Under the pieces are notes generated by a model. It was not told where the DNA came from and did not search any database. It worked only from the letters and a program-made list of their open reading frames with translations. A stretch of 31,520 nucleotides of DNA from IMG/VR virus record IMGVR_UViG_3300017991_000298, positions 1-31,520 of that record; one strand, given 5' to 3'. Shown one piece after another: positions 2,797 through 31,520 of the stretch (positions within the stretch are counted from its first letter, which is position 1; each line of letters begins with the position of its first letter). The position numbers and the translations under genes were made by a program. This DNA is from a virus.

Positions 2797-3194
2797 AAAG
2801 GCAATGCGTCGTAACGCAAAGCAACGGCATCGAGGCGTGCGGCTCTATGAAGCGACGGCGGTGCGTCGTAAAGCGGAGCAACGGCGTGGCTCATCGGGGC
2901 ATTGTCGGCAACGAGACGCAAAGCAACGGCACAGTATTGACACGATGCGAACTGACACGCGAGGCAACGGACTGGCAAGGTGGTGCCCAGAGCGGCAACG
3001 GCAAGGCATCGCGCCCGCTATGATCTGCAACGGCAAGGCATCGCAACGCAACGCAACGGCCAGGTAAGGCGGCGCATAGATCGGCAACGGCCAGGTAAAG
3101 AATCCGCGATGATCTGCAACGGCATAGTATAGTATCGCAGTGCGACACGATGCAACGGCATCGCAATGCGGCACTCCGATTAGCAAAGGCAAGA
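2797..3194 (+). repeat. Degenerate GCAACGG repeat region, noncoding
   Basis: This roughly 400-base stretch holds no convincing gene. Ten exact copies of GCAACGG occur, all on the plus strand, with the CAACGG core starting at 2822, 2879, 2924, 2965, 2996, 3028, 3054, 3085, 3117 and 3153. From 2965 the spacing is mostly 31-32 nt. Between them are related words such as GGCAAGGCATCGC, GGCCAGGTAA (twice) and ATGATCTGC (twice). CGATGC-AACG-GCATCG at 3147-3162 can fold into a small hairpin. Reading frames across it are short and merely spell the repeats. It lies at the end of the rightward operon, before a terminator, so it may be transcribed as an RNA tail or act as a DNA-binding array. Confidence 0.75.
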
Positions 3195-25884: not shown

Positions 25885-25914
25885 ATAATATACCATACTG
25901 CGCTTCCACGTCAA
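25885..25914 (-). promoter_or_regulatory. Sigma70-like promoter upstream of HTH/dUTPase/ssb genes
   Basis: TTGACG (25914-25909), an 18-nt spacer and TATTAT (25890-25885) lie in the only sizeable gap (25844-25956) of the middle of the leftward block. The -10 area is AT-rich against a mixed background. It likely starts transcription of the HTH, dUTPase, unknown, SSB and RuvC set. Confidence 0.65.
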
Positions 25915-25956: not shown

Positions 25957-27420
25957 TCAAAACGCCGTCTCGATGTATGGGTCGTCGTCATATTCAACAG
26001 ACACTGTCGCCTTGCTGTATGACGAAAACTTCTGCTGCTTTCCGTTCCACGCTAGTGGTATTCTGTATCCAGAGTCGTGCACCTTTGATTTATAGCTTAT
26101 CAGTTCGGCGCGTGGCACTGGACTTGACCAGTCGAGCGTTGGATCGTCCGCGTCCTGAAACGACGCTGGGCGGCCCGTGCCAGCTGTTGGGTTGATAAGC
26201 GCATACATGCCGCTAACGTAACGGCTGATTGCTTGCGGAGAAACGGAAAAGTGGTGCATCCCCGGCGGTATCGGATGCCCTTCTTTCCGCTGTGCATCCT
26301 CGTACGCCGTACCGAGGTGATGAAGAAGCACCACGGCGACGCCGTCGCTCACTGAGGCGTCGTGCAGCATGGACACAATGTTGCCTATCTCAGACACTTC
26401 GTTCGCTGGGTTGTATTGTATCTTTGTCAAGTGGTCGATAAACACAACGTCACACTGATGCTCCCACACAAGCGTCTTGACTCTTAGTGCAACGTCCTGT
26501 CGCTTCGCCGGTCGGGCGTCAGCCATATCATCAACCCACACCGGCAGCGAAGCAACCTCCTCCTGCCAATGCTTTAGGTTGTCAAGTTCTTCTTCTGACA
26601 ACCCTCCGTTGTCGTACTTACTCCTGCTGATACCAGCTAGTTGTGCGGCTGCGATACCTGGTATTACGTCGCGCTGGCCTTCGAGCACGATTATGCCGAC
26701 TCTAGTGCCAGTAAGCGCCGACGTGTACGCCATCTGAACCATCATCGAGGTTTTGCCACATGAAGGCAGTGAGGCGATCATGTGCAGCTCCCCGGCGGTC
26801 CAGCCGCCCCCGAGCATCTCGTCAACAGGCGTCAGGCGTTGCGGGTCCGGGCTGAGCTCCGGGAAGTTGGTTGTGGCGTGCACTCGGACCGGATTCCCTT
26901 TTTGCAACCGCTTGATATCCTGATTCATGAGTTCACCAAGCGTGTATACCGTTCGTTTCCTGTTCGCTTGGCGGCGGGTTTCCATCCACTGCGACTCGAA
27001 CCGTCCGGCAATCTCCGAAACGTTATCGTCCGAATCGTATAGCTCCTCGATGGTTCCGCGCATGATAGTTATCAGCATACGCCTCAGCGCTCGCTCCATA
27101 ACTATCAGTGCATGATGTTCGGCGTTTGCCGTTGTGCCAACCAGCGCCGCGAGGTCTACCAGATACTCGTATCCTCCAGCGTCCTCAAGCGTTCCCGACG
27201 TTTCAAGGTGCTCGGACAGGATAGCGACATCTACCGGTACGCCTGACTCCCACAAATGTATGATTGCTTCGTAAATATACCGATGCTTTAGCGAGTACAA
27301 CGCGCTACTATCGTGCAAAACGCTTTGAGCGCGCAGGATTGCCTCATTGTTTATCATCATCGCGCCGATGACCTGCTTCTCGATCTCGACAGCTGACGGC
27401 ATGATGCGGTCTTTGCTCAT
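25957..27420 (-). CDS. dnaB: DnaB-type replicative helicase
   Basis: ATG at 27420, with GGAG upstream, gives 487 aa. Residues 8-110 are the DnaB N-terminal helical domain (AVEIEKQVIGAMMINNEAIL, AGGYEYLVDLAAL). The RecA-like domain has Walker A SLPSCGKTS (217-225), an IIVLEGQR strand (usual LEM-S here differs), Walker B DVVFIDHL and an HHLG segment where DnaB usually has SQL. It unwinds DNA at the phage fork, loaded by the initiator encoded directly upstream, matching lambda O-P order but with the helicase itself encoded. Confidence 0.87.
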   Translation of the reverse strand: MSKDRIMPSAVEIEKQVIGAMMINNEAILRAQSVLHDSSALYSLKHRYIYEAIIHLWESGVPVDVAILSEHLETSGTLEDAGGYEYLVDLAALVGTTANAEHHALIVMERALRRMLITIMRGTIEELYDSDDNVSEIAGRFESQWMETRRQANRKRTVYTLGELMNQDIKRLQKGNPVRVHATTNFPELSPDPQRLTPVDEMLGGGWTAGELHMIASLPSCGKTSMMVQMAYTSALTGTRVGIIVLEGQRDVIPGIAAAQLAGISRSKYDNGGLSEEELDNLKHWQEEVASLPVWVDDMADARPAKRQDVALRVKTLVWEHQCDVVFIDHLTKIQYNPANEVSEIGNIVSMLHDASVSDGVAVVLLHHLGTAYEDAQRKEGHPIPPGMHHFSVSPQAISRYVSGMYALINPTAGTGRPASFQDADDPTLDWSSPVPRAELISYKSKVHDSGYRIPLAWNGKQQKFSSYSKATVSVEYDDDPYIETAF

Positions 27421-27425
27421 GGTTA

Positions 27426-28526
27426 TTACTCCGTGCCCCACATTTTGAACTGTGAGCGTTCAGCCCTCTCCTTGCGTTTCTGGTCTGTTCCTTTTCCGTT
27501 GTCAATACTCCTCCCGCCGGTCGCCAGCTTCATTTGCGGCAACAGCCTGGAAAACTGCTTCCTGAACTTCGCAATTGACTGTATGTTACTTGGCCACCAG
27601 AATTGTGCGTCACGGTCTTCGTTCGCGCCAAGCCAGTCAATAACCGAACGTATACTCTCTGCCGATTGCTTGCCGCCGATGTTGGGGCCGCCCAGCGTGC
27701 GAAGTTTGCGCATCACATCGTAGTGCATCTCGCGATCTCCAGCGAGTTTCCACTCCGGGTAAAGTGCCTGTAATTTGGACTCGAACCTGTTGACAAGCTC
27801 AACGTCTATCGGCTCGTACTTGCGCTTGGACGACGCGCGCTTGTTAGAAGCCGCTGAAGGGGCGGCAACGTGCCGACTAGTGTCCATACCCTTATTTGGT
27901 GCTTCCTTCGCTTCCTGCGTGCTCTTTCGGCTTCTAGTGCGATTCTGTGATGTGCCTTGCGGTGCGGGTTTCTTTTCCGTGTCTCGATCTGGTTCTTCCT
28001 CCTCTTTGGGCCTTGGCTCTGGTAGAGAGATGTCACGATTGCGCGAAGCGCTGTCGTGATGAGCACTCTTCTCTTTTTCTGAGTACACATAAGAGACAGA
28101 TAAGGAAAGGGGGGAGTATGAGGGGGGAAAACCAGGATCAACCAACGGCGGCTTCATGTGGCATTTTCCCACTTTAGAAGTGGCATTTTCCCACTTTAGA
28201 AGTGGCATTTTTCCACATGAGTGGCATTTTTCCACACGAGTGGCATTTTTCCACATGTCGCCTATGATTGCATAGCAAGTATTCCTGATTCCCTGCACGG
28301 AAACGCGCTCAACCAATCGTTCATTTTCGAGTGTATTGAGGTGCCTGATAACAGTTTTCCTGTCCCTTATCCCGAGCACACTCATCAGTTTGCTAACTCC
28401 TGGTGAAGCCACGCCGTCTTCGTTGGCGTAAGATGCGAGCAACAGGTAGCACATCATCGGACCGATTCCTACCTGTGCAATTATCCCAGACTGTAGGTCG
28501 GATGATTGTAGAGTGATAGTTTCCAT
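27426..28526 (-). CDS. Replication initiator containing the origin iterons
   Basis: 366 aa from ATG at 28526 (GAGGATGAT upstream). Residues 1-90 are a winged HTH of replisome-organiser type (MMCYLLLASYANEDGVASPG, KLMSVLGIRDRKTVIRHLNT, VERVSVQGI). Residues 91-124 are encoded by five iterons, producing repeats of W(K/E)NAT, V(E/G)KCH and CGKMP. A charged, low-complexity linker (130-235) follows, then a C-terminal helical domain (ELVNRFESKLQALYPEWKLA, FWWPSNIQSIAKFRKQFSRL) that could recruit the helicase. It likely binds its own internal iterons, as lambda O does. Confidence 0.78.
   Translation of the reverse strand: METITLQSSDLQSGIIAQVGIGPMMCYLLLASYANEDGVASPGVSKLMSVLGIRDRKTVIRHLNTLENERLVERVSVQGIRNTCYAIIGDMWKNATRVEKCHSCGKMPLLKWENATSKVGKCHMKPPLVDPGFPPSYSPLSLSVSYVYSEKEKSAHHDSASRNRDISLPEPRPKEEEEPDRDTEKKPAPQGTSQNRTRSRKSTQEAKEAPNKGMDTSRHVAAPSAASNKRASSKRKYEPIDVELVNRFESKLQALYPEWKLAGDREMHYDVMRKLRTLGGPNIGGKQSAESIRSVIDWLGANEDRDAQFWWPSNIQSIAKFRKQFSRLLPQMKLATGGRSIDNGKGTDQKRKERAERSQFKMWGTE
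28158..28254. repeat. Five iterons, probable replication origin
   Basis: Five copies of GTGGCATTTT(C/T)CCAC start at 28158, 28180, 28202, 28221 and 28240 with 22, 22, 19 and 19 bp spacing. Each has GTGG/CCAC inverted ends. They lie inside the initiator gene. To their left on the plus strand, 28069-28136 is purine-skewed and less GC-rich in part, a possible unwinding region. Position and symmetry closely parallel lambda ori. Confidence 0.85.
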
Positions 28527-28527
28527 A

Positions 28528-28575
28528 TCATCCTCGACCGGGGTTGACAGACTGTATGTGATGCCGTATATTCAA
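28528..28575 (-). CDS. Possible 15-codon leader peptide ahead of the initiator
   Basis: A TTG at 28575 follows a perfect AAGGAGG with 6-nt spacing, and the frame closes with TGA at 28528-28530, one base before the initiator ATG. The peptide would start MNIRHHIQSVNPGRG with the TTG read as Met. Such a tightly placed ORF is typical of leaders that couple translation to the next gene (plasmid R1 tap-repA). It may also be a gene remnant. Confidence 0.45.
   Translation of the reverse strand: MNIRHHIQSVNPGRG
28544..28572 (+). promoter_or_regulatory. Rightward sigma70 promoter opposing the initiator gene
   Basis: TTGACA (28544-28549), a 17-nt spacer and TATATT (28567-28572) are close to consensus. 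No rightward gene lies downstream; instead an intrinsic terminator begins 23 bp later. It would produce a short RNA antisense to the initiator leader. Confidence 0.65.
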
Positions 28576-28578
28576 AGT

Positions 28579-28638
28579 GATCCTCCTTGTGTGGGGCGGG
28601 GCGCTGCGGTTCCAAGCCGTCAGTGCCCCGCCGTTTTT
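28579..28638 (+). ncRNA. Predicted ~60-nt antisense RNA over the initiator leader (oop/CopA-like)
   Basis: From the promoter at 28544-28572 the transcript would start near 28579 and end at the T-tract (28634-28638). Its 5' end, GATCCTCCTTG, is unpaired and exactly complementary to the leader's AAGGAGGATC, and the rest is the terminator hairpin, also complementary to the leader. Antisense control of the leader peptide, and through it the initiator, is the natural reading; lambda oop and plasmid CopA are precedents. The prediction rests only on sequence elements. Confidence 0.55.
28595..28638 (+). terminator. Intrinsic terminator of the antisense RNA
   Basis: GGCGGGGC (28595-28602) pairs with GCCCCGCC (28625-28632). 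The stem continues inward with a G-U pair, CTG/CAG, one bulged T and CGG/CCG around a TTCCAAG loop, and is followed by GTTTTT. The T-tract is on the plus strand only, so it terminates rightward transcription. On the minus strand the same hairpin precedes ACACAAGGAGG. Confidence 0.75.
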
Positions 28639-28826
28639 CATGCCTCCGTCCCAGCTGGCTTGACGTGGATCCCCTCCCCCTCCGCCGCCTCACGTATCCA
28701 CGCGCTGACCAATCTACCGAGCGTAGTGCCGTGTCGTGCCGCGAGCTCATCCCACGCCTCTCGTTCCGACGGTTCGACATGAATCGTCGTCCTGTTGGTG
28801 CGCACTCGCGGTGATGTGTTAGCCAT
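28638..28826 (-). CDS. Ribbon-helix-helix DNA-binding protein
   Basis: ATG at 28826 has AAGGAGAAAAACA upstream. 62 aa. A basic N-terminus precedes the RHH pattern: strand TTIHVEPSE, helix REAWDELAARHG, turn TTLGRLVSAW and second helix IREAAEGE. These dimeric Arc/MetJ-like proteins are repressors or plasmid/phage copy regulators. Its position just before the antisense RNA and initiator is that of lambda cII, so it could regulate the replication operon. Confidence 0.82.
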   Translation of the reverse strand: MANTSPRVRTNRTTIHVEPSEREAWDELAARHGTTLGRLVSAWIREAAEGEGIHVKPAGTEA

Positions 28827-29696: not shown

Positions 29697-29729
29697 CTGT
29701 CCTCCGTTGTGCTGTGTCCGTCATCGCTT
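29697..29729 (-). repeat. 33-nt leader repeat, copy 2
   Basis: Identical to 337-369; here it forms most of the leader of the 117-aa gene, between promoter and start codon, and carries the ribosome-binding site. Confidence 0.85.
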
Positions 29730-30483: not shown

Positions 30484-31197
30484 TCAACCGTCAATGATCG
30501 CGTCGCTCAGGTCCGCTCCGCGCATGTCCGCGCGGTGTAGGTCCGTGCCGCGCAGGTCTGTGTAGCGCAGGTCGGCGCCTCGCAGGTTGGCGTAGCGCAG
30601 GTCCGCGCCTCGCAGGTTAGCGCCTCGCAGGTCGGTGTCTCGCAGGTCGGTGTATTGCATATCAGCACCGCGCAGGTCGGCGTAGTGCAGGCACGAGTCG
30701 CCAAGCGACGCGCAGCTGATGTCCGCGCCTCGCAGGTCCGCGCCTCGCAGGTCAACGCCGCGTATGTCAGCGTCGCGTATGTCAGCGTTGCGCATATCAG
30801 CGCCTGTCATATCAGCGTAGCTCAGGTCCGCGCCCCTCAGGATGGCGTCGCTCAAGTCCGTGCCGTCGAGGGTCGCGCCGCTCAGCCACGCGTCGCTCAG
30901 GTCCGCGCCTGTCATATCAGCGTAGCCCAGGTCCGTGCCGTCGAGGATCGCGCCGCTCATATCAGCGCCTGTCATATCAGCGTCGCTCAGCCACGCGCCA
31001 CTCAGGTCCGCTTCGCGCATGCGGGCATTGCGCAGGTCGGCGTCACGCATGTCGGTGCCGCTAAGGTCAGTGTATCTCAAGTCTGCCAGAGCGCCAGCAC
31101 GCCCGTTGCTCTCCCACCACCGCATGTGTTCTGCGAGTATCGCCCGTAGCTCGTTGCCATCGATCTTGCGCCGTGGTGCGACAGGGTGAGTCGTCAT
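30484..31197 (-). CDS. Pentapeptide-repeat protein B
   Basis: ATG at 31197 behind GGAGGCAGAACA gives 237 aa; the upstream extension crosses the hairpin at 31220-31239 and is rejected. About 45 N-terminal residues (MTTHPVAPRRKI..) are followed by roughly 37 repeats of A(D/N)L/M-type pentapeptides, the later ones (LRGAD, LRGAN, LRYAN) nearly identical to those of the partial gene at 1-332. Early repeats are more diverged (MTGAD, LSDAW). The predicted fold is a long right-handed beta-helix, about nine coils. Roles such as gyrase binding or a structural scaffold are possible. Confidence 0.92.
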   Translation of the reverse strand: MTTHPVAPRRKIDGNELRAILAEHMRWWESNGRAGALADLRYTDLSGTDMRDADLRNARMREADLSGAWLSDADMTGADMSGAILDGTDLGYADMTGADLSDAWLSGATLDGTDLSDAILRGADLSYADMTGADMRNADIRDADIRGVDLRGADLRGADISCASLGDSCLHYADLRGADMQYTDLRDTDLRGANLRGADLRYANLRGADLRYTDLRGTDLHRADMRGADLSDAIIDG

Positions 31198-31495: not shown

Positions 31496-31520
31496 CTCTC
31501 ATCCTCCTGTTTTTGCTTGC

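Follow-up and report, generated by a model that had tools for sequence, protein, structure and literature searches.

Antisense RNAs over replication initiator genes

The rolling-circle plasmid pMV158 carries, in the gap between copG and repB, the gene for RNAII, an antisense RNA of 48 nt that consists of a 17-nt 5' tail and a terminator (PMC4485353). RNAII blocks the translation of repB, and the upstream gene encodes the repressor CopG (PMC4485353, PMC5717011). In plasmid R1, where the order is copB-copA-tap-repA, the antisense RNA CopA blocks tap, and repA is coupled to tap (PMC5717011). An antisense RNA is also found over a cellular initiator gene: ArrA of Bacillus subtilis runs over the 5' untranslated region of dnaA and lowers its expression (PMC12112137).

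The OOP RNA of phage lambda starts at 38675, has an overlap of 52 bases with its target, cII (PMC3985674, PMC5869508), and leaves the stability of the O-P mRNA unchanged (PMC3985674). Its promoter, pO, has been proposed to interfere with transcription from pR (PMC3985674, PMC5869508). In the lambda sequence pO overlaps the start of O, and OOP begins just past the O Shine-Dalgarno. RNA-seq has revealed an OOP RNA at the lambda position in prophage BTP1 (PMC7067206), and nearly all homologues of the OOP region that we found are in enterobacterial lambdoid phages. The locus described here appears, by its anatomy, to combine the position of lambda oop, the build of pMV158 RNAII and the coupled leader of R1 in one phage module.

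The initiator locus

The DNA analysed, called the window throughout, is the whole of IMG/VR virus record IMGVR_UViG_3300017991_000298, a complete record of 31520 bases. The minus strand carries nearly all genes between 3232 and 31495 in a dense array, most of whose intergenic gaps are shorter than 60 nt. One of only four gaps above 100 nt in this array is the 111-nt gap that separates a gene for a small ribbon-helix-helix (RHH) protein from the gene for an O-like/DnaD-like replication initiator; the order is RHH gene, gap, initiator gene with iterons inside, and DnaB gene (Table 1). A sequence-only reading of this DNA, which had drawn attention to the gap, stated that there was no plus-strand gene anywhere near; this is true of the neighbourhood, although the record does hold two such genes elsewhere, at 987-1868 and 1916-2659.

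Table 1. Features of the initiator locus, with coordinates in the window
Feature	Position	Strand	Remarks
DnaB-like replicative helicase gene	25957..27420	-	directly downstream of initiator; DnaB N domain 2.2e-24, phrog_19 1.2e-45
O-like/DnaD-like replication initiator gene, 366 aa	27426..28526	-	N-terminal HTH_36; profile matches
Five iterons GTGGRAAAATGCCAC	28158..28254	-	within initiator gene; paired pattern, chance expectation 0
Predicted leader ORF, 15 codons, MNIRHHIQSVNPGRG	28528..28575	-	TTG start; from sequence only
Predicted sigma-70-type promoter	28544..28572	+	TTGACA 28544-28549, 17-nt spacer, TATATT 28567-28572
Predicted antisense RNA, ~60 nt	28579..28638	+	from promoter and terminator; start 28579 or 28580
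5' tail of the RNA, GAUCCUCCUUGUGUGG	28579..28594	+	15-16 nt, mostly unpaired in predicted fold
Leader Shine-Dalgarno AAGGAGG	28583..28589	-	within the RNA's target
Predicted terminator	28595..28638	+	hairpin 28595-28632, then GTTTTT 28633-28638
Small RHH protein gene, 62 aa	28638..28826	-	same-strand gene upstream of initiator

The initiator was recognised by its matches to phrog_4880 (2.5e-7), phrog_391 (4.2e-6) and Pfam HTH_36 (1e-4, under the curated cut-off), and the iterons inside its gene are likely to mark the origin. The RHH protein matches four RHH-type Pfam models, all below threshold; its single-sequence structure model has the order E-E-H-H at a pLDDT of 74, and Foldseek returned weak, non-significant matches with CopG, ParG and Arc among them. 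The promoter scans showed no strong minus-strand site immediately 5' of the RHH gene. On the minus strand there is a promoter-like site at 25885-25914 (TTGACG and TATATT, 10/12), which sits in the 113 nt that separate the DnaB gene from an excisionase-like gene.

Some features of the record as a whole may be recorded here. The same-species contig L289:1-296 opens with the window's final 22 bases (31499-31520) and, about 275 bases further on, arrives at base 1 of the window; since it bridges the two ends, a circular or circularly permuted genome of ~31.8 kb is probable. By this end junction, the window would lack a short piece of a pentapeptide-repeat gene. A pentapeptide-repeat protein is encoded at the right end (30484-31197), and the left end truncates a second, related repeat stretch (1-336). 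The 33 nt of a leader sequence at 29697-29729 recur exactly at 337-369. The stretch 2950-3130, past the gene at 1916 (gp1916), is rich in repeats, and a same-species contig aligns to it at several offset positions.

A predicted promoter-terminator unit on the plus strand

The plus strand of the gap holds the best promoter match of the window on that strand, TTGACA-N17-TATATT, at 11/12 to the sigma-70-type consensus, which is presumably used by the host. When the gap was shuffled locally 20000 times, a promoter of at least 11/12 arose twice. A hairpin of 38 nt starts 22 bases past this promoter; it has 17 pairs, including two G-U pairs, with one bulge and a 3-nt loop, and it is followed by GTTTTTCA, with GTTTTTC after the hairpin. 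At -33.0 kcal/mol it is the strongest single hairpin in the window on either strand, the next being at -21.8. The corresponding RNA (28579-28640, 62 nt) folds at -36.1 kcal/mol (z -4.7), a stability reached by none of 2000 local shuffles.

The two elements were also assessed jointly. None of 600 dinucleotide-shuffled windows held a promoter of at least 11/12 that had a terminator of dG <= -15 no more than 150 nt away. Other loci, 2.2 Mb in all, contained 54 such promoters, of which none had a terminator of dG <= -25 and two had one of dG <= -20. As a positive control, the same RNAfold-based scan was run on the cI-P region of lambda and found oop at 38711-38683 together with its terminator. A generic terminator scan did not call the hairpin at 28595-28632, probably because of the bulge. 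The promoter followed by a strong stem with GTTTTT, as the sequence-only reading had described it, is thus borne out, and the pair is best read as a gene for an antisense RNA; statistically the unit is strong, and we predict that it is transcribed.

Which strand the hairpin serves is suggested by its pairing. As a plus-strand RNA it has -33.0 kcal/mol, versus about -28 as minus-strand mRNA, because the two G-U pairs turn into A-C mismatches there, which suggests that selection has acted on the plus-strand transcript.

The predicted RNA and the leader of the initiator gene

Transcription from this promoter would begin 7-8 nt past the -10 element. The predicted RNA occupies the 111-nt gap and is complementary to it over its whole length by construction, and its 3' end falls at the RHH stop codon (28638-28640), leaving a coding overlap of ~1 base. 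The largely unpaired tail is exactly complementary to AAGGAGGATC, which comprises the leader Shine-Dalgarno and its flanking bases, just as had been claimed from the sequence. In the mRNA the mirror hairpin carries a 7-nt loop, CUUGGAA, with a YUNR-type CUUG. Motifs of the YUNR type are common in antisense recognition loops (PMC4485353); a single loop of this kind is weak evidence and may hint at antisense recognition. In Rfam the RNA had no match at the gathering score, one match at chance level, and none to the plasmid countertranscript families even at E 5.

One correction concerns this Shine-Dalgarno, since the initiator ATG is ~55 nt downstream of it. The minus-strand leader reads AAGGAGGATCACT-TTG-AAT-ATA-CGG-CAT-CAC-ATA-CAG-TCT-GTC-AAC-CCC-GGT-CGA-GGA-TGA-T-ATG, from which we infer that this strong site serves an ORF of 15 codons, with TTG at 28575 and TGA at 28528, and not the initiator. 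The initiator's own site, GAGGAT, is weaker and, with the start codon, is predicted to be mostly paired. The stop of the leader ORF adjoins the initiator start in TGATATG, a junction which suggests coupling by termination and reinitiation. With its TTG start the leader ORF could be fortuitous; an ORF of 37 codons (28641-28528) likewise spans the gap and has an ATGA overlap with the RHH gene.

Comparison with plasmid and phage systems

CopG is an RHH protein, and the Pfam model RHH_1 is named for copG, consistent with this. The likeness to pMV158 is one of anatomy and not of demonstrated sequence homology. In both, an RHH gene stands directly upstream on the same strand, followed by an antisense RNA gene in the gap and then by the initiator; both RNAs are short (48 nt in pMV158, ~60 nt here), with an unpaired tail (17 versus 15-16 nt) and a terminator hairpin, and both are complementary to the leader upstream of the initiator, here as a prediction from sequence. 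Repression by the RHH protein is putative in the phage. What sets the two apart is the replicon, a phage O-like/DnaB system in place of a rolling-circle plasmid with a RepB-family initiator, and the target, since the phage RNA covers the strong Shine-Dalgarno of a leader ORF. The module would work like the pMV158 family but is not a member of it, for its initiator is O-like/DnaD-like and next to DnaB.

The leader is the point at which the phage resembles R1. There too an antisense RNA is directed against the leader, a short ORF is coupled to the initiator, and a repressor gene (in the phage the RHH gene, putatively) lies upstream; the phage leader ORF, whose translation is predicted, adjoins the initiator start as TTG...TGATATG. 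CopA has two hairpins, whereas the phage RNA has one, overlaps the leader Shine-Dalgarno directly and has no match in Rfam.

With lambda the shared element is position. The RNA gene is flanked by an upstream regulator gene on one side and by an O-like gene that contains iterons on the other, the convergent promoter has its -10 overlapping a translation start, and the terminator is at the end of the upstream gene. However, OOP targets cII, while the upstream gene here encodes an RHH protein and there is no cII. No sequence similarity to OOP was found, and the DNA of the region matched no phage record searched. The predicted anatomy is closer to copG-rnaII-repB of pMV158 than to lambda oop, although the position is oop-like. 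ArrA likewise lies antisense over the leader of a replication initiator; it differs in having a cellular initiator, a DnaA-inhibited promoter and another anatomy. Because of its initiator family, its sequence and the Rfam result, the phage RNA is not a member of the lambda, pMV158 or R1 type.

Relatives of the region were sought by several routes. None with this initiator was found in the phages, plasmids and viral contigs searched, including by initiator and helicase searches. Terminase and capsid searches returned only same-species contigs without the region (3300018080_000546 and 3300017987_000716 do not cover it). A terminase alignment run over genome and viral contigs gave 160 loci and a RecT search gave 79 others; the initiator was present at none of them, and neither the iteron-pair search nor the plasmid search gave a relative. 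A search of viral contigs for the promoter-over-Shine-Dalgarno layout gave at least 80 loci, with no convincing counterpart among the matches listed. One phage (L320) has relatives of RecT, SSB, dUTPase and DnaB; it carries a different protein before DnaB and is without the antisense element, and because of that different protein it is no test of conservation.

A proposed countertranscript brake and other explanations

Our preferred reading, held with moderate confidence, is that the locus encodes a plasmid-type, cis-acting countertranscript which brakes the synthesis of the initiator through the leader ORF. The plus strand of the gap would encode an RNA made of the unpaired tail and an intrinsic terminator, transcribed against the direction of the replication operon. 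The tail would pair with AAGGAGGATC in the leader and the RNA hairpin with its mirror hairpin in the mRNA, and this pairing would close the ribosome-binding site of the 15-codon ORF. Translation of the initiator, with its weak start that is predicted to be paired, would depend on ribosomes completing the leader, so initiator synthesis would fall when the leader is blocked. Since every genome copy would make the RNA, more copies would mean more of it, and this increase would act as a brake on replication. An oop- or CopA-like RNA limiting the initiator had been proposed from the sequence; the CopA-like action on a leader fits the coupled ORFs, and the position is that of oop, but the target is not. 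What counts against the preferred reading is that OOP, at a similar place in lambda, leaves O-P mRNA stability unchanged (PMC3985674).

The convergent promoter might also act by itself. As proposed for lambda pO, collision of polymerases would tune how much operon transcription reaches the origin, with the RNA in a minor role. Position and orientation with respect to the O-like gene, which holds iterons, are indeed those of pO, and in lambda read-through to ori changed on mutation of pO, whereas supplying oop RNA in trans did little (PMC3985674). Yet the RNA fully covers the Shine-Dalgarno here, unlike OOP, and an unpaired 5' tail is unnecessary for interference alone, which makes this explanation fairly unlikely. 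The other role known for OOP, in which a double-strand RNase cuts the duplex and the upstream message is destabilised, would make the RHH gene the target. Lambda OOP works on cII in this way through RNase III (PMC3985674, PMC5869508), and the predicted RNA does end at the RHH stop codon; an overlap with about one coding base, as against 52 bases for OOP and cII, renders such regulation very improbable.

Two further explanations would do without an antisense RNA altogether. The hairpin could be a sense-strand element of the mRNA (an insulator, or one for processing or stability) placed before the Shine-Dalgarno, with the antisense promoter a chance match. In the same phage, CACAAGGAG is preceded by a GC-rich hairpin in the leaders of recT and gp1916 too, and since the mirror hairpin likewise precedes the Shine-Dalgarno, part of the gap structure may serve the mRNA. 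Those two hairpins are weaker and lack an antisense T-run and promoter, whereas the gap hairpin folds more stably as plus-strand RNA, has its T5 correctly placed and is joined to the promoter at a very low chance probability; as a full account of the gap we hold the sense-strand element to be unlikely. Finally, the gap may simply be coding, with promoter and terminator as by-products of a 37-aa ORF. The frame is open and is coupled at its two ends by ATGA (RHH gene) and TGATATG (initiator gene), but it has AGG-AGG exactly at the strong Shine-Dalgarno and a near-perfect GC-rich hairpin, and it leaves the promoter plus terminator unexplained. We regard it as the least probable of the readings.

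Possible action in trans

It had also been suggested that the RNA, with its anti-Shine-Dalgarno 5' end, might act in trans on other phage mRNAs. In its fullest form, a single plasmid-type copy-control RNA would act on the initiator leader in cis and on the recombination operon in trans, and so couple the initiation of replication to recombination. Elsewhere in the phage the tail's best match is the leader of the RecT-like gene (987), with 11 nt (CACACAAGGAG), and the next is that of gp1916, with 9 nt; both partners are the plus-strand genes. An 11-nt match was, however, reached by 144 of 3000 control tails, about 5%. The overall pairing with other gene starts was as good in 69 of 300 controls, so that the tail paired on average no better with these starts than control tails with the same core and shuffled flanks do. 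The recT (946-990) and gp1916 (1875-1917) leaders share CACAAGGAG with the initiator leader (for recT, CACACAAGGAG). A shared leader design is an equally good explanation of the matches, since in both leaders, too, the Shine-Dalgarno comes after a GC-rich hairpin. The recT match lends the suggestion weak support, and we consider the dual role distinctly unlikely. The product of gp1916 (1916-2659) has a weak match to Csm4 of the CRISPR RAMP family (NCBIfam 2.1e-4, under the cut-off) and a glycine-rich GIFSGLGQWRSSGKGRF stretch.

Implications

The antisense RNA gene is likely to be real, and it would represent a known kind of control in a new, variant form. As the RNA would cover the ribosome-binding site of a coupled leader, it probably limits replication in the manner of the plasmid copy-number RNAs. 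The locus is compact, and point mutations could separate the action of the RNA from interference by its promoter, a matter that is debated for lambda oop. If the preferred countertranscript reading is true, a non-lambdoid tailed phage governs an O-like initiator by a plasmid-style countertranscript and a coupled leader, which would suggest a recurrent origin, at this spot, of antisense control that brakes initiator synthesis.
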